Source of the DNA: Actinopolymorpha pittospori
GTDB lineage: Bacteria; Actinomycetota; Actinomycetes; Propionibacteriales; Actinopolymorphaceae
Reading direction: 5' to 3'
NCBI RefSeq assembly: GCF_014873875.1
Contig: NZ_JADBEM010000001.1
Location: 7,626,001 to 7,690,000 of the forward strand
DNA length: 64,000 bases
Each line of letters begins with the position of its first letter. Position 1 is the first letter of the stretch. The translations under genes were made by a program, and so were the position numbers. The notes below the pieces were generated by a model, which did not search any database, was not told the DNA's origin, and was given only the letters and a program-made list of their open reading frames with translations. Positions 5,069-20,257 of this stretch are shown here, one piece after another.

Positions 5069-5701
5069 CGTCCTTTGCGAGGTAAGCGGACTTCGCCGGC
5101 GGGGCGCCGGTCACGAGCGCCGAGGGCGCACGTGGACGGGCCGGCATCACTGGATGTCAGGACGGTACAACGCGTGGCCGGGTACGGGGGTGCCCGGGCT
5201 CACCCGGAACCAGCCCGGACGAGTGTGGACGTAGGCGACGAGATCCGGCGTAGCGAACCGGCGTACGGAAGCTGCGGAACCGGCGAAGAAGACGGAACGG
5301 TCCGCTCGCCCTTCGGACCGACCCGCGACACGCAGGCTGCGTGCCACGTGGCCGTTGTCTACTGGGCGGCGGACCGCTCCGTGGCCACCCCACCGCGCGG
5401 ACCGAGAGCCGGCTGCCGCGTGACAAGAGAACTGGCTTCGGACTCCTCACGCTTCAGCCCGGACGACGGTCCGAACCGAGTCGGCCTGCGGTGGACAGAA
5501 GACGACGATGGCGATCCGGACACCGCGGTGTCAACCACCCACTGACCTGCGAAGACGACAAAAAGGCGCAGGTCAGCGCCATCTGCGGGCAACTCCTGCG
5601 ATGCCGAGATTTTGTCTTGTGGACGGCGTGTCGACACCCCGGCGTGTCGTCTGGCGATCTTGGTAAGCGCGCCGGTCACGAAGGTTATCGCAGGTGAGGT
5701 G
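5069..5701. other. Non-coding stretch between lnt and kal
   Basis: I see no convincing gene in these 633 bases. The open frames have no recognisable motif and poor start sites. It must hold the promoter of the lnt-ppm-fxsA run on the minus strand and the 3' end of the kal transcript. The only clear structure is the perfect inverted repeat at 5542-5576. Confidence 0.5.
5542..5576 (-). terminator. Hairpin downstream of kal
   Basis: CTGACCTGCG and CGCAGGTCAG form a perfect 10-bp stem with a 15-base loop that is A-rich on the plus strand. It lies 126 bases beyond the kal stop, so it may end the kdd-kal operon or form a structured leader element. The function is inferred. Confidence 0.45.
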
Positions 5702-6142
5702 TCAGGAGTTGGCGGGTACCACCACGGTGGCGCGCCCGATCACCGCGACGAGCGGCGGCTCGAGCAGGCCCGCCGCCGACTCACCACGGCCCGACTCGCC
5801 ACGTGCCACCACCCGGGCTTCCAACTCGAGGTCCCGACTCCGGTTGCCCACTCGGACGACGGTGGCGTGGACCTCGAGGACGTCGCCGGCGTGGACGGGC
5901 GCGAGGAAGCGCACTTCGGCGTAGGAGGCGAGCAGACCCTCGTCACCGTCGGTGCGGATGCACACCTCGGTGGCGACGTCGCCGAACAGGCCGAGTACGT
6001 AGCCGCCGGCCACGAGGTTGCCGGCGTAGTGCGCCTCGGCGTAGGAGACGTACCGGCGGTGGGTCACCGCGAGGCCGAGCCTGGCGTCCGTGACCTCCGT
6101 CGCCGTCGCGGCTCCCGGGGCCTGGTCGGTGGGGTCGCTCAT
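5702..6142 (-). CDS. kal: 3-aminobutyryl-CoA ammonia-lyase (hotdog fold)
   Basis: Kal removes ammonia from 3-aminobutyryl-CoA to give crotonyl-CoA, a late step of the lysine (3,5-diaminohexanoate) degradation route. The 146-residue protein is a single hotdog domain. It includes Ser-Tyr-Ala-Glu-Ala-His-Tyr-Ala-Gly-Asn-Leu-Val-Ala-Gly-Gly, with the Glu and His the likely active-site region, and Ala-Glu-Val-Arg-Phe-Leu-Ala-Pro-Val-His-Ala-Gly-Asp. Hotdog folds are hard to assign alone. The assignment rests on similarity to known Kal proteins and on the position as last gene behind kamE, with an ATGA overlap. Confidence 0.85.
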   Translation of the reverse strand: MSDPTDQAPGAATATEVTDARLGLAVTHRRYVSYAEAHYAGNLVAGGYVLGLFGDVATEVCIRTDGDEGLLASYAEVRFLAPVHAGDVLEVHATVVRVGNRSRDLELEARVVARGESGRGESAAGLLEPPLVAVIGRATVVVPANS

Positions 6143-6933
6143 GCTGTCCTCCCGGGGCTCACGCTGGTCACGGTCCGCGACGTCGCGGAGGTCGTGCGGG
6201 GCGCGGGCACCCTCGCGTGGACGAGATAGCTCGCGACCTCACCCGGCGTCGTCCCTCTGCCGAACACCCGGTCGACGCCGAGGTCCGTTGTCATCGACTC
6301 GTGGAAGCGCGGCCCGCCGACGACGAGCAACGGGCGGTGCTCCTCGTCGTAGGCCTCCCGGAACGCCGCGGCCATCTCCTTGGTGCCGTGGACGTGCGCG
6401 TCCCGCTGGGTCACGACCTGGGAGACCAGGATGGCATCGGCCCGCTCGGTGAGGGACCGGGAGACGAGGTCGGGCACCGCGACCTGTGCGCCGAGGTTGA
6501 CCACCTTGATCTCGCGGTAGTACTCGAGCCCCTTCTCCCCCGCGAAACCCTTGACGTTGAGGATGGCGTCGATGCCGACCGTGTGCGCGTCGCTGCCGAT
6601 GCAGGCACCGACCACCACCAGTCGCCGGCGCAGCCCCGAGCGGATGGCGAGGTTGACCTCCTTGGGACCGAGCAGCGGGTACTCGCGCTCGACGATCTCG
6701 ACCGCGGCCAGGTCGACCAGGTGGCTGACCCGGCCGTAGACGATGAAGAAGGTGAAGTCGGGCCCCATCGCCTTGGCGTGCACCACCATGGCCGGGTCCA
6801 GGCCCATCTTTCCCGCGAGTTGGAGGGCCGCGCCCTCCGCCCGCCGGTCGTGCGCGACCGGCAACGTGAACGACACCTGGACCATGCCGTCCCCGGTGGT
6901 GTCGCCGTACGGCCGTACGACCGGACCACTCAT
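6139..6933 (-). CDS. kamE: Lysine 5,6-aminomutase beta subunit (B12- and PLP-binding)
   Basis: This is the cobalamin-binding subunit of the adenosylcobalamin- and PLP-dependent aminomutase, which moves the terminal amino group of beta-lysine to give 3,5-diaminohexanoate. The B12 motif Asp-x-His-x-x-Gly is seen as Gly-Ser-Asp-Ala-His-Thr-Val-Gly near the middle. The later Leu-Leu-Val-Val-Gly-Gly-Pro-Arg belongs to the same Rossmann-like domain. The N-terminal part (about residues 1-95) is the dimerisation domain with Val-Ser-Phe-Thr-Leu-Pro-Val-Ala. Length (264) matches the clostridial enzyme. ATGA overlaps on both sides couple it to kamD and kal. Confidence 0.95.
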   Translation of the reverse strand: MSGPVVRPYGDTTGDGMVQVSFTLPVAHDRRAEGAALQLAGKMGLDPAMVVHAKAMGPDFTFFIVYGRVSHLVDLAAVEIVEREYPLLGPKEVNLAIRSGLRRRLVVVGACIGSDAHTVGIDAILNVKGFAGEKGLEYYREIKVVNLGAQVAVPDLVSRSLTERADAILVSQVVTQRDAHVHGTKEMAAAFREAYDEEHRPLLVVGGPRFHESMTTDLGVDRVFGRGTTPGEVASYLVHARVPAPRTTSATSRTVTSVSPGRTA

Positions 6934-8507
6934 GCCGGCACCTCCTCCAGCAGGTCGGTCGCGGGGTTGTAGTACAGCGACGACTTCCTCGCGACCCCGT
7001 CGAGCCCCTTGCCTCCGGCCGCGGGTCGGCGCATCAGCCCGAACGTGCCGTCGGCGATGGCGTCGAGCAGGCCGTCGTCCCCGATCCGGGTGAGCAGGTC
7101 GACCGCCTCGCCGAGCACCTGCCGGGCCCGCTGGGCGATGAAGCCGTCCGGTGCGGGCCGGAAGTCCTCGTGCAGGTTTCCGCACGCGGAACGGACGTAG
7201 CGCACGTTCCGTAGGGCGAGGTCGCGGTCGGACAGCCACGGGGTGACCACCGCCTCCGTCATCATCCCGACCAGCAGGATCTGTTGCCCGGTGAGCACGC
7301 CGGCCAGGTTGAAGAAGCCGTCCAGCAGGTAGCCGCGGAAGACGTCGCCGTCCATGTGTCTCGTCGGGGGCATCCACTTCAACGGCGCCTTCGGGAAGAG
7401 CTCCCGGGCGAGCAGTGCGTGGGCGAGTTCGAGCCGGAACGACTCCGGCCGCTCCGGGTCGATCTCGAACGCGTGGCCGAGCCCCAGTTGCCAGTCCCGC
7501 AGGCCGGCCTCCTTGCCGAAGTACTCGTTCAGCAGCTGGGAGACGGTGACCGTGTGCGCCGCGTCCACGGCGTCGGCGGTGGTGAGGTAGTTGTCCTCAC
7601 CGGTGTTGATGATGATGCCGGCCCGGGCATGCACCTGCCGGCTGAACCGCTGGTCGACGAACGTGCGGATCGGGTTGATGTCGCGGAAGAGGATGCCGTA
7701 CATCGAGTCGTTGAGCATCATGTCCAGGCGTTCTAGACCCGCGAGCGTGGCGATCTCGGGCATGCACAGGCCGGAGGCGTAGTTCGTGAGCCGTACGTAA
7801 CGCCGAAGCTCCTTGCTCACGTCGTCGAGGGCCGCCCGCATCAGCCGGAAGTTCTCCTGCGTGGCGTAGGTGCCGGCATACCCCTCGCGCGTCGCGCCCT
7901 CGGGTACGAAGTCGAGCAGCGACTGCCCGGTCGAGCGGATCACGGCGATCACGTCGGCGCCCTCGCGAGCGGCCGCCTGCGCCTGCGGGATGTCCTCGTG
8001 GATGTCGCCGGTCGCCACGATGAGGTAGATCCAGGGCTGTTGCCTCGGGTCGCCCCACCGCCGGACCAGCCGCTCGCGTTCGCGCCGGCGGGCGTCGACG
8101 GCCTTCACGCCGGCACCGACCGCCCGGCGTGCCGACCGGGCCGCCTGGCGGGCCGCCGCCCCCTCGGGCAGGTGGAAACGGACGGAGCCGGCCGACGCCT
8201 TCTGCGCCAGCGCGGCGAGGTCCTCCGCGTCACCGCGCGCGAGTGCGGACCAGACGGGAAGGGCCACACCGTGCTCGAGTCCGACCTCCGCCCGGACCGC
8301 GTCGACGAGTCGGTTGACCCAGGGGGTGCCGTCCGGGTCGGCGCCGCGAAGTCCCGCGAGCCGCAGGACCGCGCGCTCGACGGAGACGGTGGTGTGCGCC
8401 CGGGCGAGTTTCACGATGGGCCGGCCCGCGCGGCGGGCGAGGGTACGTGCCTGGCGGACCGTCGCCGGGTCGAGGTCCAGGTGGCGCCGGAACGCCGTCG
8501 TACTCAT
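6930..8507 (-). CDS. kamD: Lysine 5,6-aminomutase alpha subunit
   Basis: This is the catalytic TIM-barrel subunit that holds PLP and the substrate, and it pairs with KamE. Recognisable blocks are Ile-Tyr-Leu-Ile-Val-Ala-Thr-Gly-Asp-Ile-His-Glu-Asp-Ile, Ile-Arg-Ser-Thr-Gly-Gln-Ser-Leu-Leu-Asp and Asn-Asp-Ser-Met-Tyr-Gly-Ile-Leu-Phe-Arg-Asp-Ile-Asn. Ile-Asn-Thr-Gly-Glu-Asp-Asn-Tyr-Leu-Thr-Thr and Lys-Trp-Met-Pro-Pro-Thr-Arg-His-Met follow. All are strongly conserved in the family. Length (525) is close to the clostridial protein. The start overlaps the amidohydrolase stop by four bases (ATGA), and the end overlaps kamE in the same way. Confidence 0.95.
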   Translation of the reverse strand: MSTTAFRRHLDLDPATVRQARTLARRAGRPIVKLARAHTTVSVERAVLRLAGLRGADPDGTPWVNRLVDAVRAEVGLEHGVALPVWSALARGDAEDLAALAQKASAGSVRFHLPEGAAARQAARSARRAVGAGVKAVDARRRERERLVRRWGDPRQQPWIYLIVATGDIHEDIPQAQAAAREGADVIAVIRSTGQSLLDFVPEGATREGYAGTYATQENFRLMRAALDDVSKELRRYVRLTNYASGLCMPEIATLAGLERLDMMLNDSMYGILFRDINPIRTFVDQRFSRQVHARAGIIINTGEDNYLTTADAVDAAHTVTVSQLLNEYFGKEAGLRDWQLGLGHAFEIDPERPESFRLELAHALLARELFPKAPLKWMPPTRHMDGDVFRGYLLDGFFNLAGVLTGQQILLVGMMTEAVVTPWLSDRDLALRNVRYVRSACGNLHEDFRPAPDGFIAQRARQVLGEAVDLLTRIGDDGLLDAIADGTFGLMRRPAAGGKGLDGVARKSSLYYNPATDLLEEVPA

Positions 8508-10162
8508 GTGTGCTCCCGGTCGTTGTGCCGGTCGTCGCCCCGGTCATCGCCCCGGTCGAACAGAATCCGGCCGCCCGCGACGGTGCGGACGCAGGTCGGA
8601 GACGGCGTACCCGGCGCGAGGCTCGGGAGCCCCGGCAGTTCGGAACCCTCGAGATCCCACACCGCGTAGGTCGCCTCCGCGCCCGGCCGGAGGGCGCCGT
8701 CGTGGTCGTCCAGCGCGGCCCACCGACCGCCTCCGGTGTGCGCGGCGAACGCGTCGGCGACGCTGATCCGCTCGTCCGCGTTGTGGTGCCACGCGGCCGC
8801 ACGGACACCGCCCCAGGGATCGAACGGCGTCACCGGCGTGTCCGAGCCGAACGCGAGCCGTACCCCGGCGCGACGCATCGTCGCCCAGGGGTTGGCCGCG
8901 AGGGCCCGCTCGACACCGAGCCGGGTGGCGTACATGCCGTCGGCACCACCCCAGGCGGCGTCGAACGCGGGCTGACCGCTGACCACGACGCCCCACCGGG
9001 CGAGATCGGCCACGTCCTCCGCTGCGATGAGTTCGACGTGTTCGAGCCGGTGCCGGGCCGCGGTCAGCCGGTCGGCGCCGAGCCGCTTCTCGGCCCGGCG
9101 GAAGCCGTCGACGACCGCCGCCGTGGCGGCGTCTCCGATGCAGTGGAAGCCCGCCTGCAGGCCGGCACGCGTACAGGCAACCACGTGCTCGGCCACCTCC
9201 TCCGCATCGAGGTAGGTCCGTCCCGCGTGGTCGGGGCGGTCGACGTAGTGCGCCGTCAGCGCGGCCGTGCGGGAGCCGAAGGCGCCGTCCGCGCAGAGGT
9301 CTCCCGCGGCGCCGCGGGCACCCAGGGCGCGGGCCCGCTCGACACCACCGGTCGTGGCGAGCTCGCCCCAGTAAGGCACCACCTCCACGACCGGGCGCTC
9401 CGCAGCGATCTCCGCGATGAGCGCGAGGTCGTCGGCCGGGTTGACGTGGGGTGCGGCCATCTCGTGCACCGAAGCGACGCCGTTCGCCGCGGCGGCCGCG
9501 AGCGCCACGGCAATGGCCGTCCGTCGCTGAGTGCGGGTGACCAGCGCGGACGCCGCGTCCCGGGCGACGTGATGGGCCTCCCGCTCGACCCGGGCGGTCC
9601 CGTCCCAGCCTGGCCGCGTCGCCATGGCCGGCGCCCGCTCGTACAGCGCGCCGGAGACCAATCCGGAGTGGACGTCCACCCGCGAGAGGTACACGGGTCG
9701 ACCGGGTGCGGCCCGGTCGATCTCGGCCGCGGACGGGAGCCGTGGATCGGTCCAGCGCGTCTCGTCCCAGCCGAAGCCGAGGATCACGGCGTCGGGGTAG
9801 CCGCGGGCGTACCTCGCGAGCCGGTCGAGCAGGTCGTGCGCACTGGTGGCCGCGGCCAGGTCCAGCCCGCCGAGCCGCAGCCCGGTCTGCGAGGTGTGGA
9901 CGTGCGCGTCGACGAACGCCGGGGTGACCAACCCGCCGGCGAGGTGGAGCACCTCGTCGGCTCCGTCGGCGTACGCGTCGGCCTCCCCCTCGTCCCCGAT
10001 CCAGCTGATCACGTGACCCTCGACCGCCATCGCCGTCGAGGTCGGGCGCGAACGGGGTCCCGGCCCGTCCGGGTGGGCCAGGTGGTGCGTCGGGCCGTCG
10101 GCCCGGTCGTCGCCGGTGAGGATGGTGCCGCCCCGAAGGAGCACGCGGTGGGAGGAGGTCAT
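8504..10162 (-). CDS. Amidohydrolase family 3 (YtcJ-like) embedded in the lysine operon
   Basis: A 552-residue metal-dependent hydrolase of the amidohydrolase superfamily. The metal-binding Val-Asp-Ala-His-Val-His-Thr motif is near residue 90. Gly-Phe-His-Cys-Ile-Gly-Asp follows in the second half, then Arg-Leu-Glu-His-Val-Glu-Leu and a late Ala-Phe-Gly-Ser-Asp-Thr-Pro-Val. These together give the His/Asp metal ligands of the YtcJ/NfdA branch. The family acts on amides, formamides and related C-N bonds, and the substrate here is unknown. The gene overlaps kdd and kamD by four bases on each side, so it is translated as part of the lysine pathway operon. No described step of this route needs an amidohydrolase. 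Confidence 0.85.
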   Translation of the reverse strand: MTSSHRVLLRGGTILTGDDRADGPTHHLAHPDGPGPRSRPTSTAMAVEGHVISWIGDEGEADAYADGADEVLHLAGGLVTPAFVDAHVHTSQTGLRLGGLDLAAATSAHDLLDRLARYARGYPDAVILGFGWDETRWTDPRLPSAAEIDRAAPGRPVYLSRVDVHSGLVSGALYERAPAMATRPGWDGTARVEREAHHVARDAASALVTRTQRRTAIAVALAAAAANGVASVHEMAAPHVNPADDLALIAEIAAERPVVEVVPYWGELATTGGVERARALGARGAAGDLCADGAFGSRTAALTAHYVDRPDHAGRTYLDAEEVAEHVVACTRAGLQAGFHCIGDAATAAVVDGFRRAEKRLGADRLTAARHRLEHVELIAAEDVADLARWGVVVSGQPAFDAAWGGADGMYATRLGVERALAANPWATMRRAGVRLAFGSDTPVTPFDPWGGVRAAAWHHNADERISVADAFAAHTGGGRWAALDDHDGALRPGAEATYAVWDLEGSELPGLPSLAPGTPSPTCVRTVAGGRILFDRGDDRGDDRHNDREHT

Positions 10163-11257: not shown

Positions 11258-11327
11258 ATTATCCTGTGCGATTCGGACTCGACAGTACGACATCCGTGAA
11301 ATGGCCGCTTGGTCGGAGGTGTTTTCG

Positions 11328-12758
11328 GTGCCGCTGGAAGTTCAGGAACAGCCGTACGACTACCGCGGTCGGGCACTGGTCGAGCCCGACTGGAGGCGTC
11401 TGCCCGGCTGGCGCGACATCGATGTGGCCGACTGGGAGTCTGCCCAGTGGCAACGCGCACACTGCGTGAAGAACCTCAAACAGCTCAGATCGGTCATGGG
11501 TGACCTACTCGACGAGGAGTTCTACGCCGACCTCGAGCGTGACCAGGCCGAACGCGCCACCATGTCGATGCTGCTGCCGCCGCAGATGCTCAACACGATG
11601 GTTCCGGACGAGGTGCCGACGACCGAGGCGTTCTATGCCGATCCGGTGCGGCGCTACATGCTGCCGGTGTTCTCCGACCGGCGCACCGACTGGCCGTCCC
11701 ATCCACGCGCGACGCGCGACTCGCTGCACGAGCACGAGATGTGGGTCGCCGAGGGGCTGACCCACCGCTACCCCACCAAGGTGCTCGCCGAACTGTTGCC
11801 GACCTGTCCGCAGTACTGCGGACACTGCACCCGGATGGACCTCGTCGGAAACTCCACGCCCCAGGTCGACAAGCTGAAGTTCGCGCTCAAACCGCAAGGG
11901 CGCCTTGACGGCATGCTCGAATACCTGCGCACCCACCGAGGCGTCCGCGACGTGGTCGTCTCCGGCGGCGACGTGGCCAACCTGCCCTGGCCGCGCCTGG
12001 AGGCGTTCCTCTCGGCCCTGCTGGAGATCGACAACATCCGCGACATCCGGCTCGCGACCAAGGCGCTGATGGGCCTTCCCCAGCACTGGCTCCAGGACGA
12101 CATCCAGGCCGGAATGGAGCGGCTCGCCCGGGTCGCGCGCGCCCGCGGCGTGATGATCGCCATCCACACCCACGTCAACGCCGCCCAGTCGGTCACACCG
12201 CTGGTGGCCAGGGCCGCGAAGGCGATGCTCGCCACCGGCATCCGCGACGTCCGCAACCAGGGCGTGCTGATGCGGGGCGTCAACGACTCCACGACGCAAC
12301 TGCTCGACCTGTGCTTCGCCCTGCTCGACGGCGCGACGATCACGCCGTACTACTTCTACATGTGCGACATGATCCCGTTCAGCGAACACTGGCGGGTCTC
12401 CGTGCGCGAGGCACAGCAACTTCAGCACGGCATCCTCGGCTATCTGCCGGGATTCGCGACGCCGCGCATCGTCTGCGACGTGCCCTACGTCGGCAAGCGC
12501 TGGGTGCACCAGGTCGCGGAGTACGACGAGACCCTTGGCATCAGCTACTGGCGGAAGAACTACCGCACCGGCATCGAGCATCCAGGTGACGACGCCCTGG
12601 AGCGGACCTACGAGTACTACGACCCGATCGACAGCCTGCCCGAACGGGGCCAGGCCTGGTGGCGCGAACACGGCGGGGCGCACCTGGCCGTCGCCGAGCA
12701 GCGGGCCGCCGAGTCCCGGTCGGCGTCACGACGTCAACTGCTGATCGACACCCACTGA
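11328..12758 (+). CDS. kamA: Lysine 2,3-aminomutase (radical SAM)
   Basis: KamA converts L-lysine to L-beta-lysine with S-adenosylmethionine, a 4Fe-4S cluster and PLP. The cluster motif Cys-Pro-Gln-Tyr-Cys-Gly-His-Cys begins near residue 160 and fits CxxxCxxC. Two acidic residues that bind the lysine side chain in the clostridial enzyme appear kept, in Met-Cys-Asp-Met-Ile-Pro-Phe and in Val-Cys-Asp-Val-Pro-Tyr-Val-Gly-Lys. In glutamate 2,3-aminomutases these are Lys and Asn. The Lys in the second motif would bind PLP, although the usual Gly-rich loop before it is altered. GTG 11328 was chosen because GGAGGT lies seven bases upstream; the in-frame ATG at 11301 has no ribosome site. At 476 residues it has a longer C-terminus than the clostridial form. 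Confidence 0.92.
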   Translation: MPLEVQEQPYDYRGRALVEPDWRRLPGWRDIDVADWESAQWQRAHCVKNLKQLRSVMGDLLDEEFYADLERDQAERATMSMLLPPQMLNTMVPDEVPTTEAFYADPVRRYMLPVFSDRRTDWPSHPRATRDSLHEHEMWVAEGLTHRYPTKVLAELLPTCPQYCGHCTRMDLVGNSTPQVDKLKFALKPQGRLDGMLEYLRTHRGVRDVVVSGGDVANLPWPRLEAFLSALLEIDNIRDIRLATKALMGLPQHWLQDDIQAGMERLARVARARGVMIAIHTHVNAAQSVTPLVARAAKAMLATGIRDVRNQGVLMRGVNDSTTQLLDLCFALLDGATITPYYFYMCDMIPFSEHWRVSVREAQQLQHGILGYLPGFATPRIVCDVPYVGKRWVHQVAEYDETLGISYWRKNYRTGIEHPGDDALERTYEYYDPIDSLPERGQAWWREHGGAHLAVAEQRAAESRSASRRQLLIDTH

Positions 12759-12868: not shown

Positions 12869-14224
12869 TCAGCGGTGGAGTGCCCGCGCGACCTCGGGAA
12901 TCGCGTCGACGTAGCCTCGCAGCAGGGACCGGGCCACAGTCACCGAGTCGACCAGCGGATGGAGGGCGAACGCCTTGAGCGCGGCCTCCTCCGACCCTGT
13001 CGTGGCCGCCTCGATCGCGAGCCGGTCGACCGCCTTGACCTGTTGCATCAGGCCGAGCTGGTGCAGGTCGGGCGCCGACGTGGCGAGCGGGTGCGCGCCG
13101 TTCGCGTCGACCAGCGACGGGACCTCGATCACCGCGTCGGCGTCCAGGCCGGCCAGCGTGCCGCCGTTGCGGACGTTGAGGATGATCGTGGACTTCTCGT
13201 CCCTCGCGATCGCCGCCATCACCGCGAGCGCGACCAGTTCGTAGCCGCCCTCGCTCTCCAGGTCGAAGGGCTCGGCCTCCGGCGAGTCGTCGTGGCGCTT
13301 TCCCTTGGCCTCGGCCATGTAGAGCGCCTTGCGTTCGGCGATGGTGCGCTGCCACAGCTCGAACGCGCGGTCGGGGTCCTTTCCGGCCGCGGCGTAGAAG
13401 TCGCCCTGCTGCGCGACGAGGAACTCACCACGGGTGGTCGGCTGCTCCACGATGGAACGCACGGCGTCGCGGTTGAAGTAGTAGTAGTAGAGGTACTCGT
13501 TGGGGACCACGCCCATCGCCTGGATCCAGGACGGGCCGAAGATGGAGCCCTCCTCGAGGGTGGCGAGGGCCTGCTCGTCGGCCAGGAAGCGCGGCAGGTG
13601 GTCCTCACCGTCGCTGATCAGCCGACGTAGCCAGCCGAGGTGGTTGAGGCCCACGTAGTCGACCTGGATCCGCCCGGCGTCCAGCCCGAGGGAACCCGCG
13701 ATCCGGCGGCCGAGGCCGCCCGGGGTGTCGCAGATGCCGATGACCCGGTTTCCGAGCACCTGCTGCAACGCCTCGGTGATCATGCCGGCCGGGTTGGTGA
13801 AGTTGATGAAGAACGCCTTGGGGGCAAGAGCCTTCACCCGCCTCGCGATGTCGAGCATCACGGGGATGGTCCGCAGGCCGTAGGCGATGCCGCCCGGTCC
13901 GGTCGTCTCCTGGCCGAGCACGCCGAGATCCAGGGCCACCCGCTCGTCGCGGGTGCGGCCTTCCAGTCCGCCGACGCGGATCGCGGAGAAGATGAAGTCG
14001 GCGCCTTCGAGTGCCTTGTCCAGGTCGAGGGTCGCCTCGACGCGCGGAGCGTGGTCCCTGCCCGCGGCCAGCTGGGAGAGGACCGCGGTGATGACCGAGA
14101 GCCGCTCCGGGGACTGGTCGTAGAGCGCCACCTTGTCGACCCGGGGCGAGCCGGTGTCCTGCAGGAGTGCCTTGTAGACCAGCGGAACGCGGAAGCCCCC
14201 ACCGCCAAGAATTGCCAGTTTCAC
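12869..14224 (-). CDS. GH4-family glycosidase (6-phospho-beta-glucosidase-like)
   Basis: GH4 enzymes split glycosides by an NAD- and metal-dependent redox-elimination route in the cytoplasm. The N-terminal Leu-Ala-Ile-Leu-Gly-Gly-Gly-Gly-Phe binds NAD. Asn-Phe-Thr-Asn-Pro-Ala-Gly-Met, Gly-Ile-Cys-Asp-Thr-Pro (metal Cys) and Gly-Leu-Asn-His-Leu-Gly-Trp (metal His) mark the active site. The tetrad after the metal cysteine, Cys-Asp-Thr-Pro, differs from the usual CNVP, CDMP, CHSV and CHEI types, so the substrate is open. Length (451) is normal. The GTG start overlaps the DeoR stop (GTGA). The divergent PfkB-ABC operon suggests joint use of one sugar. Confidence 0.88.
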   Translation of the reverse strand: MKLAILGGGGFRVPLVYKALLQDTGSPRVDKVALYDQSPERLSVITAVLSQLAAGRDHAPRVEATLDLDKALEGADFIFSAIRVGGLEGRTRDERVALDLGVLGQETTGPGGIAYGLRTIPVMLDIARRVKALAPKAFFINFTNPAGMITEALQQVLGNRVIGICDTPGGLGRRIAGSLGLDAGRIQVDYVGLNHLGWLRRLISDGEDHLPRFLADEQALATLEEGSIFGPSWIQAMGVVPNEYLYYYYFNRDAVRSIVEQPTTRGEFLVAQQGDFYAAAGKDPDRAFELWQRTIAERKALYMAEAKGKRHDDSPEAEPFDLESEGGYELVALAVMAAIARDEKSTIILNVRNGGTLAGLDADAVIEVPSLVDANGAHPLATSAPDLHQLGLMQQVKAVDRLAIEAATTGSEEAALKAFALHPLVDSVTVARSLLRGYVDAIPEVARALHR

Positions 14225-14979
14225 GATGTGAGTACCTCTCCACCTGCCTGCCGGCAGATCTCCAGTGTTTCGTTGTCGGCGTCCTCGGTGGTCACGAGAA
14301 CGTCGATGTCCGCGAGGCCGCAGATGCGCAAGGAACCCTTGCCCGGGAACTTCGCGGGATGCGCGACGAGCACCACCGACTCGGCCGCGGCGAGCATCGC
14401 CCGCTTGGCGGACGCCTCGACCTGCATGTTGTCGAGCACCTGACCGTCACGCCGGATCCCAGTACAGGAAAGGAAGAGCCGGTCGGCATGCACCTGCCGC
14501 AGCGCCTCCTCGGTGAGGGATCCGACCAGCGAACGGTAGTGGCGCCGGACGACGCCACCCAGCAGGACCAGCTCGACCACCGGATCGTCGCGAAGCTCGT
14601 CGAAGACCGCGATGTTGCTGGTGATGACGGTGACCTCGCGACCGCGCAGGTGTCGCGCCACCCGCAGGGTGGTGGTTCCGATGTCGAGGAGCAGGACGTC
14701 ACCGTCGTTGACGAGCTTGACCGCGCGTGCGGCGAGAGCGTCCTTCGTCTCGCCCTCCGCGTCGTCGGTGACGGCGAAGGGCATCTCGACGCTGCCTTCG
14801 TCGTCGAGGACGGCGCCGCCGTAGACCCTGGTGAGTTCGCCACCGCGGTCGAGGCGCTGGAGATCGCGACGGATCGTGGCCGTGCTGACACCGAGGTGTC
14901 TGGCCAGCTCCGCCGCTGAGGCCGTGCCCTTGGCGCGCAGAGCACGGACGATGCGTCGGTCCCTCTCGCGCTGCAGCAC
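14221..14979 (-). CDS. DeoR-family sugar operon repressor
   Basis: A 252-residue regulator with an N-terminal helix-turn-helix (Glu-Leu-Ala-Arg-His-Leu-Gly-Val-Ser, then Thr-Ile-Arg-Arg-Asp-Leu). A C-terminal sugar-phosphate sensor domain shows Leu-Asp-Ile-Gly-Thr-Thr-Thr and Val-Ile-Thr-Ser-Asn. DeoR proteins usually release DNA on binding a phosphorylated sugar, here perhaps the product of the divergent PfkB kinase. It is co-transcribed with the GH4 gene through a GTGA overlap, and it faces the PfkB-ABC operon across 106 bases. It most likely controls both directions. Confidence 0.9.
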   Translation of the reverse strand: MLQRERDRRIVRALRAKGTASAAELARHLGVSTATIRRDLQRLDRGGELTRVYGGAVLDDEGSVEMPFAVTDDAEGETKDALAARAVKLVNDGDVLLLDIGTTTLRVARHLRGREVTVITSNIAVFDELRDDPVVELVLLGGVVRRHYRSLVGSLTEEALRQVHADRLFLSCTGIRRDGQVLDNMQVEASAKRAMLAAAESVVLVAHPAKFPGKGSLRICGLADIDVLVTTEDADNETLEICRQAGGEVLTS

Positions 14980-15021
14980 GCGGCGATGTTACAGAAAAAT
15001 TCATGCAGGGTCATCCACTGC

Positions 15022-15050
15022 TTGTCAAAGTCGCTCAACTCTTGCAGACT
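15022..15050 (+). promoter_or_regulatory. Probable promoter of the PfkB-ABC operon
   Basis: TTGTCA (15022-15027), a 17-base spacer, and CAGACT (15045-15050) make a SigA-type promoter 35 bases before the kinase GTG. Similar TTCATGCAGGGTC and TCTTGCAGACTC blocks flank it and may be regulator sites. Confidence 0.4.
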
Positions 15051-15085
15051 CCGTGAACAGCAGTGAGCGATTGGGAGGACTATCG

Positions 15086-16123
15086 GTGTCGAGGCGCAGC
15101 GTTTCCGCGGCACCGGCGACGGAACGACCACAGGTCGACGTCTTCCTGGTCGGCACGTTGTTCTTCGACCTGGTGCTAGCCGGCCTTGACGCCATGCCCG
15201 AGGCGGGCGCCGAGGTCTGGGCCCGTCAACGCGCCGTTTCCCCTGGTGGTGTGGCCAACCGGGCCGTCGCCGCCGCCCGGTTGGGGCTGCACACCGGTCT
15301 CGCCGGCCAGGTCGGCACCGATCTCTTCGGCGACCACCTGTGGCAGACGCTGGGCGAGGTCGACAACCTGGACTTGCGGTGGGCGTCCCGCTCCCCCGAT
15401 GTCCAGACCACCTTGACCGTGTCGGTCGCACACGGTGGCGATCGCCGTTTCCTCAGTCACGGCGAACCCACCTGGCCGGGCGAGGCCGCGCTCGACCTCG
15501 CGCGGCTGCCGCGGGCCAGGGCGGCCCAGGTCGGTCTCGAGGCGGGCGTTCCCGAGTGGGCCAAACACCTGCGCTCGGAGGGCACGAGGCTCTTCGGTGG
15601 CGTCGGGTGGGACCCGTCGGGCCGCTGGTCGACACAGGTGCTGGACGACCTGACGCACTTCGACGCCTTCGTGCTCAACACCGGCGAAGCGATGGCCTAC
15701 ACGCGCACCGACACCCCGGTCGCCGCGCTGCGCCAGCTCGGCGAACGCGTCGCCGTGGTGGCCATCACCGACGGTGACCATGGTGCCCTGGCGGTCGACG
15801 GCATGACCGGCGAGTTCGTCAACGTACCGGCCATTCCGGTCCGGGCCGTCGATCCGACCGGAGCCGGTGACGCCTTCTTCGCGGCCTTCCTGTTCGGCAC
15901 CCTCGCCGAATGGCCGCTGCGAGAACGGCTACTCTTTGCGAACCTGTGTGCTGGCCAGTCGGTCCGCGGCCTGGGCGGCGCGGTCAGCGCACCGGGCTGG
16001 GACGACATTGCCGCCTGGCTCGAATCCAGGGAACAAGAAGCCGCTGCCTTCAGCTTTCTGGGACCCGAGTTGGCCCGGCGCCGCTCGAACCCGCGACAAC
16101 AATCCAGCAAGAAGGTGTCTTGA
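15086..16123 (+). CDS. PfkB-family carbohydrate kinase
   Basis: A ribokinase-fold sugar kinase. The N-terminal Val-Ser-Pro-Gly-Gly-Val-Ala-Asn-Arg-Ala-Val-Ala-Ala-Ala-Arg-Leu-Gly binds the sugar. The C-terminal Asp-Pro-Thr-Gly-Ala-Gly-Asp-Ala-Phe contains the catalytic Asp and the anion hole. The GTG start has GGAGGAC about six bases upstream; coding upstream of it in the same frame has no homology. Its stop overlaps the ATG of the binding protein gene. It is first in the sugar ABC operon, so it probably phosphorylates the imported sugar, which would supply a phosphorylated substrate to the GH4 enzyme or the DeoR ligand. Confidence 0.88.
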   Translation: MSRRSVSAAPATERPQVDVFLVGTLFFDLVLAGLDAMPEAGAEVWARQRAVSPGGVANRAVAAARLGLHTGLAGQVGTDLFGDHLWQTLGEVDNLDLRWASRSPDVQTTLTVSVAHGGDRRFLSHGEPTWPGEAALDLARLPRARAAQVGLEAGVPEWAKHLRSEGTRLFGGVGWDPSGRWSTQVLDDLTHFDAFVLNTGEAMAYTRTDTPVAALRQLGERVAVVAITDGDHGALAVDGMTGEFVNVPAIPVRAVDPTGAGDAFFAAFLFGTLAEWPLRERLLFANLCAGQSVRGLGGAVSAPGWDDIAAWLESREQEAAAFSFLGPELARRRSNPRQQSSKKVS

Positions 16124-17499
16124 TGAGCAGTAGACGAAGGACGGTCCTCGCTCGGGTCGGCGTCGGCCTGGCCGCCGTACCGTTCGTTTTCGTGGCGGCC
16201 TGCGCGCCCGGCGGCACCAGCACCAGCGGGCCGACGAGCAAGCCCTCCAGCGAGATCGCGACCGATCCCGCCAAGGCTGGCAAGGTCAGCTTGACGGTGT
16301 GGGACATCAACACGTCCGGCGGCGCCAACGACGCGATGATCAAGCTCAACGACGAGTTCGAGAAGAAGTACCCGAACGTCAAGATCAACCGGGTCTCCCG
16401 GACGCTGAACGACACCAAGACCACACTGAAGCTGGCGCTCTCGGGCGACAACCCACCCGACGTCGTGCAGGCCAACCAGGGCTACCCGGACATGGGCGCC
16501 TTCGTCAAGGCCGGCCTGCTCACCCCGCTCGACCAGTACGACAAGGTCTACAAGTGGGACCAGAAGTTCCCCAAGCAGCTGCTCGACCTCAACAAGTTCT
16601 CGACGGACGGCAAGACCTGGCAGTCCGGCAGCCTCTACGGCGTCTCCCAGACCGGTGAGATCGTCGGCATCTTCTACAACAAGAAGCTGCTGCAGCAGGC
16701 CGGTCTGGAGCCGCCGAAGACCTTCGCGGAGTTCGAGTCCGACCTGCCCAAGATCAAGGCTGATGGCCTGCTGCCGATCCAGTTCGGCACCTCCGACAAG
16801 TCGCCGGCCATTCACCTGTTCGGCGTCGTCCAGGCGGCGACCGCGGGCAAGCAGGCCGTCCGTGACCTCGTGACCTCCAGCGGCGACGCCACCTGGAGCG
16901 ATCCGGGCACCACGCAGGCGGCCCAGAAGGTCAAGGACTGGGCTGCCAAGGGCTACCTGACAGCCGGCGCCAACGGCCTCAGCGGTGACGGCGCCTCCTC
17001 GAACTTCACCAAGGGTCAGGGCGTCTTCCGGATCGACGGCACGTGGCGGCTCGCCGAACTCGAGAAGGCCATGGGCAAGAACGTCGGGTTCATGACTCCT
17101 CCCCCTGTCAGGGCCGGTGGACAGAGCGTCACCGAGGGCGGGGTCGGTCTTGCTTGGTCGATCACCTCCAAGAGCAAGAACCCCGACGTGGCCGGCGCCT
17201 ACCTCAACTTCATCACGAACGCGCACGCCGACGACGTCCTCGCCCAGACGGGCAACGTTCCCGCGGTGGCTCCGAAGAACTACCAGCCCCCGGCCGGAAC
17301 GCTGAGCGCCGACGTGTTCAGCGCCTGGAAGAGCATCAGCGAGAACGACGGACTGACGCCGTACCTCGACTACGCGACCCCGACGTTCTACGACACGCTG
17401 ACGTCCAACCTTCAGCAGTTGATCGGCGGGAAGCTCCCGGTCAAGCAGTTCACCGGGAACCTCGACGCTGACCAAGACGCGTTCAAGACGTCGAAGTAA
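16123..17499 (+). CDS. Sugar ABC transporter substrate-binding lipoprotein
   Basis: An extracellular binding protein of the CUT1 type (SBP family 1). Residues 1-28 form a twin-arginine-like basic start, a hydrophobic core and the lipobox Val-Ala-Ala-Cys, so the mature protein is anchored by a lipidated Cys. The rest has the two-lobe pattern, starting Leu-Thr-Val-Trp-Asp-Ile-Asn. It contains Phe-Arg-Ile-Asp-Gly-Thr-Trp-Arg near residue 305 and Ala-Tyr-Leu-Asn-Phe-Ile-Thr later, typical of sugar binders. The ATG shares a base with the kinase stop, and the two permease genes follow at 11 bases. Confidence 0.93.
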   Translation: MSSRRRTVLARVGVGLAAVPFVFVAACAPGGTSTSGPTSKPSSEIATDPAKAGKVSLTVWDINTSGGANDAMIKLNDEFEKKYPNVKINRVSRTLNDTKTTLKLALSGDNPPDVVQANQGYPDMGAFVKAGLLTPLDQYDKVYKWDQKFPKQLLDLNKFSTDGKTWQSGSLYGVSQTGEIVGIFYNKKLLQQAGLEPPKTFAEFESDLPKIKADGLLPIQFGTSDKSPAIHLFGVVQAATAGKQAVRDLVTSSGDATWSDPGTTQAAQKVKDWAAKGYLTAGANGLSGDGASSNFTKGQGVFRIDGTWRLAELEKAMGKNVGFMTPPPVRAGGQSVTEGGVGLAWSITSKSKNPDVAGAYLNFITNAHADDVLAQTGNVPAVAPKNYQPPAGTLSADVFSAWKSISENDGLTPYLDYATPTFYDTLTSNLQQLIGGKLPVKQFTGNLDADQDAFKTSK

Positions 17500-17510
17500 G
17501 GACCGCTTTT

Positions 17511-18458
17511 GTGTCGGTGTCCTCGCAGATGACTACCGCGGCGGAGGTGGGCGCCCGGACGGCGCCCACCTCCAAGAAGAAGAGGTCGAGGCGCGGCTCG
17601 GACCGGGTCGCCTACCTCTACCTCCTCCCGGCGTTCGTGGTGTTCGGGGCGTTCCTGCTCTACCCCCTGCTCCACGGGCTGTGGATCTCGCTGTACGACT
17701 GGGACGGCCTGACGCCCGCCACCTGGGTCGGGCTCGGCAACTACACCGACGCCCTCGGTGACCCGGCCCTGCGGACGGCGTTCGCGCACTCCGCCGTGCT
17801 CATCCTCTTCTACGCCGTCCTCCCGATCCTGCTCGCGCTGATGCTCACGGGCGTGATGACCCACGCGACGAAGTTGCGCCACCTGTCGTTCTTCCGGGTG
17901 GTCATCTTCCTGCCGCAGGTGGTCGCCTCGGTCGTGGTGGCGACCACCTGGACGGCGATCTACGCACCGGACGGCGTCCTCAACAACGTGCTGTCGGCCG
18001 TCGGGCTGGAGGTCATCGCCAGGCCGTGGCTCGGCGACTTCGGCCTGGCCCTCCCGGCCGTCGGCCTGATCGGCACCTGGCTCGAGATCGGTCTGTGCCT
18101 GGTGCTCTTCCTGGCCGGGGTGTCGCAGATCAACCCCGAGCTCTACGAGGCCGCCCGCCTCGACGGTGCTGGTCCGGTGCGGGAGTTCTTCGCCGTGACG
18201 CTGCCGGGCCTGCGTCCCCAGATCGCCGTGGCACTGACCCTCACCGTGATCGCGGGCCTGCGCAGCTTCGACCTGATCTTCGTCGCGACACGAGGTGGCC
18301 CGGGCACGTCCACCACCGTGCCCGGCTTCGAGGTCTACCACCGGGCCTTCGACCTCAACCAGGTCGGCTCGGCGTGCGCCGTCGGCATCCTGCTGACGGT
18401 GGTGATCCTCATCGTCACCACGCTGATCAACCGGATCGACCCTGGAGAGCAAGCATGA
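17511..18458 (+). CDS. Sugar ABC transporter permease (MalF-like)
   Basis: A CUT1-type inner membrane permease of 315 residues. A 35-residue basic N-terminus precedes six predicted helices, the first at Val-Ala-Tyr-Leu-Tyr-Leu-Leu-Pro-Ala-Phe. The EAA loop that docks the ATPase is Leu-Tyr-Glu-Ala-Ala-Arg-Leu-Asp-Gly-Ala-Gly. It forms a heterodimer with the product of the next gene, to which it is coupled by ATGA. The GTG start lies 11 bases after the binding protein stop. Confidence 0.93.
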   Translation: MSVSSQMTTAAEVGARTAPTSKKKRSRRGSDRVAYLYLLPAFVVFGAFLLYPLLHGLWISLYDWDGLTPATWVGLGNYTDALGDPALRTAFAHSAVLILFYAVLPILLALMLTGVMTHATKLRHLSFFRVVIFLPQVVASVVVATTWTAIYAPDGVLNNVLSAVGLEVIARPWLGDFGLALPAVGLIGTWLEIGLCLVLFLAGVSQINPELYEAARLDGAGPVREFFAVTLPGLRPQIAVALTLTVIAGLRSFDLIFVATRGGPGTSTTVPGFEVYHRAFDLNQVGSACAVGILLTVVILIVTTLINRIDPGEQA

Positions 18459-19273
18459 TCTCCAAGCGGGAAGCCGCTCTCAACTACCTCATCCTCGGGG
18501 TCTTCGCGATCATCGCGCTCTTCCCGCTCCTCGGGGTGCTGTCCTCCGCGCTGACCGACCCGTCGCAGTCGGGCGCGTCGCTGTCGTTCCCCTCGTCTCC
18601 CCACTTCGCCAACTTCGCGACGGCGTGGAACGAGGGGCACTTCGGCACCTACATGCGCTCCAGCGTCATCGTGACGGTGAGCGTCGTCGTCATCGCCGGC
18701 GTGCTCGCGATCCTCGCCGGGTACGCCTTCGCCACCATGCGTTTTCCCGGTCGGTCGGTGCTCTTCTACATCCTGCTGCTCGGCCTGATGGTGCCGAGCG
18801 AGGCGCTGATCATCCCGCTGTACTACGACCTGCGCGGTGTCGGGCTCACCGACACCTACTGGTCGCTCATCTTCCCGCAGGTCGCGCAGTCGCTCGCGTT
18901 CTGCACGTTCTGGATGCGGTCGTTCTTCCGCGGTGTCCCGAACAGCCTCATCGAGGCGGCCAAGCTCGACGGCGCCACCCGCTGGTCGGTCCTGTGGCGG
19001 ATCCTCGTCCCCATCAGCCGTCCCGCGTTGCTGACGATGGCGATGCTCATCTTCATGTGGACGTGGAACGAGTTCCTGATGCCGTTGGTGATGATCACCA
19101 ACGAGAACCTCCGGACCGCACCGCTCGGCCTCGCGTTCTTCCAGGGACAGCACACCTCGCAGTTCGCGCTCCTCGCGGCCGGAGCGACCATCGTCGCCTT
19201 CCCTGTCGTGATCGTCTACCTCTTCCTGCAGCGACACTTCATCGCGGGAATGTTGGCCGGAGCGGTCAAGTAG
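18455..19273 (+). CDS. Sugar ABC transporter permease (MalG-like)
   Basis: The second CUT1 permease, with 272 residues and six helices. The EAA loop reads Leu-Ile-Glu-Ala-Ala-Lys-Leu-Asp-Gly-Ala-Thr. Trp-Asn-Glu-Phe-Leu-Met-Pro-Leu-Val in the fifth helix is typical of MalG-type partners. The start overlaps the previous permease by four bases. No ATPase gene follows; the next gene is an AraC regulator. As in many actinobacteria, a shared ATPase of the MsiK/UgpC kind elsewhere in the genome probably powers it. Confidence 0.93.
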   Translation: MISKREAALNYLILGVFAIIALFPLLGVLSSALTDPSQSGASLSFPSSPHFANFATAWNEGHFGTYMRSSVIVTVSVVVIAGVLAILAGYAFATMRFPGRSVLFYILLLGLMVPSEALIIPLYYDLRGVGLTDTYWSLIFPQVAQSLAFCTFWMRSFFRGVPNSLIEAAKLDGATRWSVLWRILVPISRPALLTMAMLIFMWTWNEFLMPLVMITNENLRTAPLGLAFFQGQHTSQFALLAAGATIVAFPVVIVYLFLQRHFIAGMLAGAVK

Positions 19274-19360: not shown

Positions 19361-20257
19361 ATGACGACGTTGGCTCCGACAGTCGCCGGGCGCCGGAGCG
19401 CGCCGTCCACGCTCCGTGCGCCCGTCGACGACCAGTTCGGCCTGGCCTGCTGGAGCGGCCGGTCACGGTTGATGGAGTGCGCGCACCGGCATGACGACAT
19501 CGAGGTCAACCTCGCCGAGGGCGGTGAGCTGACCTACCTCTTCGGAGGCGTCCCGGTCGAGATCGCGTCGGGGACCGCGGCGGCCTTCTGGGCCGCCATT
19601 CCGCACCAGCTCATCCGCGCGCCCGCGCACGCCCGGGTGCACTGGATCACGATCCCGCTCGGTCGCTTCCTGCGCTGGGGCCTCACCGGCGCCCTGGTCG
19701 GTCGGCTGCTCCAGGGGCAGCCGCTGCTGGCGCGTACGGAGTCGGGGAGCCTCGACGCGAGTCCCTTCGGGCGCTGGGCGGACGACCTCGCGACCGGTGA
19801 CCCGGACCTGCGTGGGATCGCCTCGCTGGAGATCCAGGCCTGGATCCGGCGGCTGGGTCGGCACGCCGCACCGATGGACGACGTCTCCGCGGCCGGAGGC
19901 GGCACGACTTCCGACTCCGACGGTACGACCGTGGGTCGCGCCGCCGGGATGGCGCGGTTCATCGCCGTACGCTTCCGGGACCCGATCAGCGTCGGCGAGA
20001 TCGCGGCGAGCGTCCATCTCCATCCGCACTACGCGATGGGCGTCTTTCGCGAGGTGGTCGGCACGACGCTCGGCGCCTACCTCACGCAGTGCCGTGTCGC
20101 CGAGGCCCAACGGCTCCTGCTCACCACGAGCGCGACGATGGGAGAGATCGCCCACGCATCCGGGTTCGGCTCACAGAGCAGGTTCTACTCCTGTTTCACC
20201 ACGGCGTGCGGCGTTCCACCGGGCAGCTATCGCCGGATCCACTCCGGCCCTTTCTGA
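19361..20257 (+). CDS. AraC-family regulator with cupin domain
   Basis: A 298-residue protein. The first half is a cupin sensor with His-Arg-His-Asp-Asp-Ile-Glu-Val-Asn and Ile-Pro-His-Gln-Leu-Ile. The C-terminal 95 residues form the two-helix-turn-helix AraC domain, beginning Ile-Ala-Val-Arg-Phe-Arg-Asp-Pro-Ile-Ser. The second helix motif contains Ile-Ala-His-Ala-Ser-Gly-Phe-Gly-Ser-Gln-Ser-Arg-Phe-Tyr. It lies 87 bases downstream of the sugar permeases on the same strand, so it may be a second regulator of the sugar locus beside DeoR. The ligand is unknown. Confidence 0.87.
   Translation: MTTLAPTVAGRRSAPSTLRAPVDDQFGLACWSGRSRLMECAHRHDDIEVNLAEGGELTYLFGGVPVEIASGTAAAFWAAIPHQLIRAPAHARVHWITIPLGRFLRWGLTGALVGRLLQGQPLLARTESGSLDASPFGRWADDLATGDPDLRGIASLEIQAWIRRLGRHAAPMDDVSAAGGGTTSDSDGTTVGRAAGMARFIAVRFRDPISVGEIAASVHLHPHYAMGVFREVVGTTLGAYLTQCRVAEAQRLLLTTSATMGEIAHASGFGSQSRFYSCFTTACGVPPGSYRRIHSGPF

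Follow-up and report, generated by a model that had tools for sequence, protein, structure and literature searches.

How does a glycosidase of the 6-phospho type obtain its phosphorylated substrate when it is encoded beside an ATP-binding cassette (ABC) importer? Import through the phosphotransferase system (PTS) is the usual partner of such enzymes in family GH4. In a 64,000-nucleotide stretch of the genome of the soil bacterium Actinopolymorpha pittospori (hereafter the window), a GH4 gene is found together with genes for a DeoR-family regulator, a PfkB-family sugar kinase, a solute-binding lipoprotein and two ABC permeases. Because this GH4 is of the 6-phospho type and coupled to PfkB, our analyses favour, with slightly better than even confidence, a scenario in which a glycoside is imported unphosphorylated, phosphorylated inside the cell by the kinase and then cleaved by the GH4.

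Judged by its sequence and predicted fold, the window GH4 belongs to the 6-phospho side of its family. Both of its Pfam domains score over cut-off (PF02056, E 2.7e-41; PF11975, E 6.6e-48), and nine 6-phospho PDB sequences rank first (E 1.5e-68 to 8e-44), before AglA, LplD, 3u95 and TM0752-type chains (7e-22 to 3e-19); one of the nine, 6wbt, is labelled a cellulase in the sequence search and a 6-phospho-alpha-glucosidase in the fold search. When the AlphaFold model (mean predicted local distance difference test score, pLDDT, 93.4) was compared using Foldseek, ranks 1-38 among the best 50 matches listed were 6-phospho GH4 chains and ranks 39-49 were others. R90, D93, E94, C165, D166, H195 and the GQET motif are invariant in 35 aligned orthologues; we take C165 and H195 to be metal ligands and R90 to bind the phosphate. 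The strict pattern R90-xx-D93-E94...GQET, which also permits Glu at position 93, occurs in 132 of 137 near-full-length orthologues, and R-xx-DE with GQET is present in Escherichia coli ChbF and absent from MelA and from the CHSV/CHGx paralogues of the window genome. A literature search on GH4 tetrads and phosphate-binding residues returned nothing usable; passages of one study (PMC10628242) describe the chemistry of the family and state that GlvA and BglT require substrates carrying the 6-phosphate.

The first-pass annotation had correctly read the tetrad C165-D166-T167-P168 as CDTP, and had overstated its singularity in calling it unlike known groups, as CD(T/S)P is a clade-wide signature whose Asp is matched by the 6-phospho-alpha enzymes 1u8x and 6dux. 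Across 139 orthologue loci (138 distinct proteins; the loci, numbered with L, include one duplicate pair, and some are cut by contig ends), the tetrad is CDTP in 82, CDSP in 52 and, by eye, in L158, CDGP in three and CDSA in one; a subset of 80 loci gave 70 CDTP and 10 CDSP. The Asp is kept at all 139 loci, followed by Thr, Ser or Gly where the CDMP group of 6-phospho-alpha-glucosidases has Met, and in five PDB alignments its counterpart is Asp in two (1u8x, which is GlvA, and 6dux) and Asn in three (1s6y, 5c3m, 1up4). This invariant Asp fits alpha-type enzymes (GlvA, CDMP) and not beta-type ones (CNVP), which makes an alpha linkage likely though not certain, because GlvA, favouring alpha substrates, and BglT, favouring beta substrates, can both take substrates of either anomeric form when the leaving group is good, according to passages of PMC10628242. 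In the GH4 tree that had been suggested as a check, run on 65 proteins, the CD(T/S)P clade holds together (53 rows, support 100/99) and is separate from the other groupings, namely E. coli ChbF plus three csn-like GH4s (98/97), a CEGP clade including a paralogue from the window genome, and the MelA side; this tree was built without GlvA, AglB, BglT, LicH and Streptomyces coelicolor CsnH and carries a long-branch warning for ChbF, MelA, L157 and others.

Outside this clade, the window genome contains a third kinase-GH4 unit (L010, G000:C1:1769500-1786500, genes 5375-9486), comprising a NagB-like protein, a CEGP GH4, a NagK-like kinase and, by eye, a GntR-like regulator; CEGP-type GH4s with similar neighbours occur in L131, L133, L134 and L135. 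At G000:C1:240753-240932 (L007, L013), a short stretch matching GH4 contains a single in-frame TGA and is perhaps a remnant.

The co-occurrence of GH4, PfkB, DeoR and ABC genes exceeds chance. A PfkB gene lies within 8 kb of GH4 at 115 of the 139 loci; all four components stand together at 93, and 17 have GH4 and PfkB without ABC genes. Nine genomes from loci lacking a nearby PfkB were tested (G163, G238, G217, G389, G249, G301, G407, G006, G007), and all nine encode one of 46-50% identity elsewhere, several of these unlinked copies being placed by eye among housekeeping genes. A survey of 396 genomes of the phylum, which are not independent and in each of which scoring was limited to the four or five best candidates, identified 25 genomes with GH4 (E<=1e-70) and 37 with PfkB (E<=1e-45), 22 genomes having both (Fisher p 3e-23). 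PfkB scores at least 250 bits in 20 of these genomes, and all 20 have GH4, although the rows that make up the PfkB profile were GH4-linked ones and 10 of the 20 had supplied one. The pairing noticed in the first-pass annotation, a 6-phospho-type GH4 with a PfkB kinase and an ABC importer in a gene set free of PTS genes, is thus borne out by sequence, fold, motif and coupling. In many same-order genomes (L139-L141, most of L165-L178), a copy of GH4, DeoR and PfkB is accompanied by a different ABC importer and stands beside genes that by eye resemble ribosomal and RNA-maturation ones.

The best NCBIfam models for the kinase are ribokinase (87.2 bits) and then IolC (82.4 bits, cut-off 300), and the best 50 matches listed for its structural model (pLDDT 90.9) are all ribokinases or further PfkB kinases, with identities of 21-29%, which do not tell its substrate. 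As ribokinases use free sugars and the order of steps cannot be read from the genes, the GH4 might cleave a plain imported glycoside, leaving PfkB to phosphorylate the freed sugar (e.g. glucosamine). We consider this scenario improbable, since sequence and fold alike place the GH4 among 6-phospho enzymes and it keeps the R90-xx-DE/GQET residues missing in MelA and the CHSV/CHGx paralogues.

As had been stated earlier, a Pfam scan of the six genes identifies no ATPase; this gap is ordinary because the window genome encodes, away from the system, two UgpC/MsiK-type ATPases that score 466.6 and 445.4 bits (cut-off 432), either of which may serve this importer, and an ATPase gene of this type adjoins the system in nine relatives, just past the second permease in mycobacterial L063, L078, L085, L090, L095, L107, L109 and L111 and in L160. 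The same scan found no PTS gene in the six-gene set, the remaining genome not having been searched for PTS genes. The solved structure nearest to the lipoprotein is the chitin-oligosaccharide-binding NagB2 (7eho, E 6.6e-29), and its nearest NCBIfam model, NgcE, scores 90.1 bits against a cut-off of 399.65.

In the mechanism that we propose, the lipoprotein, the two permeases and an ATPase encoded elsewhere would bring in an unphosphorylated amino-sugar glycoside, the sugar unit of which PfkB would phosphorylate, most likely at O6. The GH4, relying on bound NAD+ and on a metal ion, would then act on the 6-phospho-glycoside through C3 oxidation, beta-elimination, water addition and reduction, releasing a hexosamine 6-phosphate, most likely glucosamine 6-phosphate (GlcN-6-P), and the aglycone; GlcN-6-P may be taken on by a NagB, and the DeoR regulator would sense a sugar phosphate and control both divergent operons. 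The idea of a glycoside taken up and phosphorylated inside the cell was put forward in the first-pass annotation; the 6-phospho GH4, the PfkB coupling and the ABC import make it the best-supported one, the interpretation as a whole being only partly supported. The pairing of a 6-phospho GH4 clade with PfkB across actinobacteria renders the order of kinase first and glycosidase second testable.

Hints to the substrate come from the neighbouring genes of relatives, the 139 loci comprising 1,525 genes outside the system, whose families were assigned by phmmer against references and in some cases confirmed with Pfam or NCBIfam. A PIG-L deacetylase gene occurs in 26 loci, always directly adjoining the system (19 Actinomadura; Kribbella L102, Segeticoccus L106 and Janibacter L119; also L160, L162, L164 and L185). 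The four proteins scanned for it (L113, L102, L119, L106) all combine PIG-L with NEW3 and CBM9 domains; for the two closest (L113, L217), the NCBIfam models BshB1, Mca and MshB score best, each far below cut-off, and L160 has none. NagB-type genes occur in eight loci, being directly downstream of GH4 and co-directional in seven (two Streptomyces, two Leifsonia, two Mycolicibacterium and one Propionibacteriaceae) and last in the PfkB operon in L154. Fisher tests of adjacency range from 4e-5 (NagB) to 2e-20 (PIG-L), values that are overstated because loci of one genus are not independent. The NagB-type and PIG-L genes, together with a lipoprotein nearest to chitin-oligosaccharide binders, suggest an amino-sugar substrate, probably a glucosamine (GlcN) glycoside yielding GlcN-6-P.

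Two further genes were observed beside these neighbours: an alpha-lytic-protease-prodomain trypsin-like protein (scanned in L079) after the PIG-L gene in Actinomadura L079, L081, L082 and L113, and a CehA/McbA-family metallohydrolase (80.0 bits, at cut-off) between PfkB and the transporter genes in L154 (12298-13866).

An amino-sugar substrate would also suit a csn-like or N-glycan-core system, in which beta-linked disaccharides of GlcN or N-acetylglucosamine (GlcNAc) are imported, phosphorylated and cleaved. The chitosan-oligosaccharide operon csnREFGHK, as portrayed in passages on it, follows the same logic, the lipoprotein is nearest to chitin-oligosaccharide binders, L148 has GH29 and GH2, L147 a GH2 relative and L186 GH123, which hint at complex glycans, and either anomer is open to GH4 enzymes with good leaving groups (passages of PMC10628242). 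We nevertheless regard this alternative as unlikely, as the window tetrad has Asp and not Asn, the GH4 of the csn-like L125 has CNVA and sides with ChbF, and the regulator and kinase families differ.

A bolder and more speculative reading than a GlcN glycoside, which we hold as tentative and possible at most, is that the system constitutes an actinobacterial route for glycosyl-inositols, in which PfkB would make GlcN-6-P-inositol and the GH4 would split it into GlcN-6-P and inositol, feeding NagB and the iol pathway. Alpha-mannosidases of families GH38 (nine loci, eight adjacent; confirmed in L186 and L116), GH76 (nine loci, eight of them Actinomadura; confirmed in L056) and GH125 (three loci) and a type I phosphodiesterase (four loci; confirmed in L186) accompany the system in relatives; together with the PIG-L/LmbE deacetylase, these might trim molecules resembling glycosylphosphatidylinositol (GPI), fungal inositol sphingolipids or mycothiol down to GlcN-alpha-inositol, which the importer would take up. 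GlcNAc-inositol and GlcNAc-phosphatidylinositol are given as the deacetylation substrates of MshB and PIG-L in passages of PMC4101496. Inositol genes flank L046, L050, L084 and L105 (three genera); the scanned IolG, IolE and IolC fall below curated cut-offs and the methylmalonate-semialdehyde dehydrogenase of L105 lies above. IolE is found in four loci against 0.5 expected (Poisson 0.002, or 0.015 counted as three lineages; background of 67 matches in 57 genomes of other genera), a signal that is modest by itself. A single glycosyl-inositol substrate family would tie together most recurrent neighbours, including MshA, a mycothiol-synthesis gene that immediately follows GH4 in L155 (513.4 bits, cut-off 462.5). 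In those Streptomyces-like genomes where GH4 and PfkB are unlinked, GlcN-alpha-inositol may instead arise inside the cell from mycothiol. Endogenous mycothiol turnover as the sole role was rejected, GH4 also being found in G073, G126, G256, G279 and G330, outside the 150 genomes with an MshA match at E<=1e-100 (draft assemblies, best four candidates per genome scored). If the substrate were a glycosyl-inositol, the system would serve to break down the sugar core found in GPI anchors, in fungal inositol sphingolipids or in mycothiol; among search listings of openly licensed PMC papers, we saw none describing such a catabolic route. That PfkB phosphorylates instead the aglycone (e.g. an inositol) or a later intermediate is very unlikely: IolC is its second-best model and four loci are flanked by inositol genes, but ribokinase scores slightly higher and a 6-phospho-type GH4 would be left without its phosphate.

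Several observations weigh against the proposed sequence of import, phosphorylation and cleavage of a glucosamine glycoside. PfkB looks like a generic ribokinase by models and fold search, and we know of no member of the system with an established activity. GH4 has no PfkB nearby at 24 of the 139 loci, three genomes (G173, G300, G330) have GH4 and no PfkB at cut-off, and 15 have PfkB and no GH4. The NagB-type proteins of L095 and L100 match glucosamine-6-phosphate deaminase models below the curated cut-offs, the genes of L148 and L186 suggest complex glycans, and no substrate-hinting gene stands beside the window copy. The window genome does encode an unlinked PIG-L protein much like that of Actinomadura (913 aa, 937 bits, at 4.45 Mb) and MshA (637 bits); its NagB-type matches are all below cut-off (best 119.6 of 236.9 bits). 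A SIS protein, a 1-phosphofructokinase-like kinase and a class II aldolase near L051, L054 and L082 lie outside one neat story. No reading accounts for two nucleoside hydrolases, one directly adjoining GH4 in L157 and another close to the system in L160, or for the alpha-amylase-like protein that follows GH4 in L164.

All the genes named in the first-pass annotation were recovered at their positions (Table 1). The two operons diverge from a 106-base gap, DeoR-GH4 on the minus strand and PfkB-lipoprotein-permease A-permease B on the plus strand, and genes overlap by 1-4 bases where DeoR meets GH4, where PfkB meets the lipoprotein and where permease A meets permease B. The description of a kinase-first operon holds for PfkB, which leads the plus-strand operon, but GH4 sits in the divergent DeoR operon.

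Table 1. Components of the GH4-PfkB system and their positions in the window.
Feature	Coordinates	Strand	Length	Characteristics and basis
GH4 NAD/metal-dependent glycosidase	12869..14224	-	451 aa	6-phospho type; tetrad CDTP, C165-P168; Pfam, PDB sequence, fold
DeoR-family regulator	14221..14979	-	252 aa	Pfam DeoRC and HTH_DeoR
Divergent promoter region, probable DeoR operator	14980..15085			Spaced CGCTCA...TGAGCG half-sites, by eye
PfkB-family sugar kinase	15086..16123	+	345 aa	DPTGAGD from residue 256; Pfam; proposed kinase of imported glycoside
Solute-binding lipoprotein	16123..17499	+	458 aa	Lipobox VAAC; Pfam SBP_bac_8/1
ABC permease A	17511..18458	+	315 aa	Pfam BPD_transp_1
ABC permease B	18455..19273	+	272 aa	Pfam BPD_transp_1

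The regulator and the kinase match Pfam DeoRC (E 2.5e-43) and PfkB (E 2.4e-32) respectively, and the NCBIfam models nearest to the former are GlpR (168.7 bits) and AgaR (165 bits), both below cut-off. The spaced half-sites of the divergent gap recur, by eye, in L044 and L045, and the corresponding gap of L047 holds the compact palindrome TGCTCAACTATGAGCA. The nearest named relatives by GH4 identity are Actinopolymorpha rutila (84%) and A. alba (81%); the window genome measures 10.56 Mb in one contig. An AraC gene (19361-20257) was considered as a part of the system and rejected: it follows permease B in L044, L190, L191 and L192 and was not found in L045 or the duplicate L193. A gene at 11301-12758, a KamA-like aminomutase by eye, stays beside GH4 in L044, L045, L138 and L190-L193.

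Among known systems, E. coli ChbF, with ChbG, resembles the window system in having a GH4 that acts on an amino-sugar 6-phospho-disaccharide, an adjoining deacetylase gene (by record annotation) and R-xx-DE with GQET, and differs in its PTS import (chbBCA), its CNIP tetrad and its clade. GlvA-type 6-phospho-alpha-glucosidases (1u8x, 6dux), which depend on PTS import, share the 6-phospho character and the CD-x-P tetrad, with Met in place of the Thr/Ser of the window clade, and 1u8x (E 9.6e-52) is less close than 1s6y (1.5e-68). BglK is a kinase of the ROK family. Passages of PMC10628242 describe it as phosphorylating a glycoside ahead of GH4 cleavage, as proposed here for PfkB, its substrates in contrast being beta-glucosides. 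The NAD-dependent sulfoquinovosidases of family GH188 (passages of PMC10755693) were considered as a parallel and not used.

The closest precedent in logic is csnREFGHK, in which passages of PMC5635096, PMC6097792 and PMC6520443 describe an ABC importer, a GH4 and a 'putative oligosaccharide kinase', amino-sugar oligomers being imported unphosphorylated and without a PTS. Membership in csnREFGHK was ruled out by the regulator (ROK there, DeoR in the window), the kinase family and the GH4 clade. Same-order genomes hold a csn-like cluster (ROK, solute-binding protein, two permeases, GH4 and NagK-like kinase; L125 of G025) in addition to a CDSP GH4 system of the type described here; this cluster, called csn-like by gene order only and compared without the S. 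coelicolor csn sequences, has a NagK-like kinase and a CNVA GH4 that groups with ChbF, whereas the window has PfkB and a CDTP GH4 of another clade. The principle of joining a kinase, a GH4 and an ABC importer is therefore not new, csnREFGHK providing, as far as these passages describe it, a precedent with other parts. The system varies a published theme, and its new elements are the CD(T/S)P clade, the coupling of this clade to PfkB, and neighbouring genes hinting at glucosamine and, more speculatively, at glycosyl-inositols.

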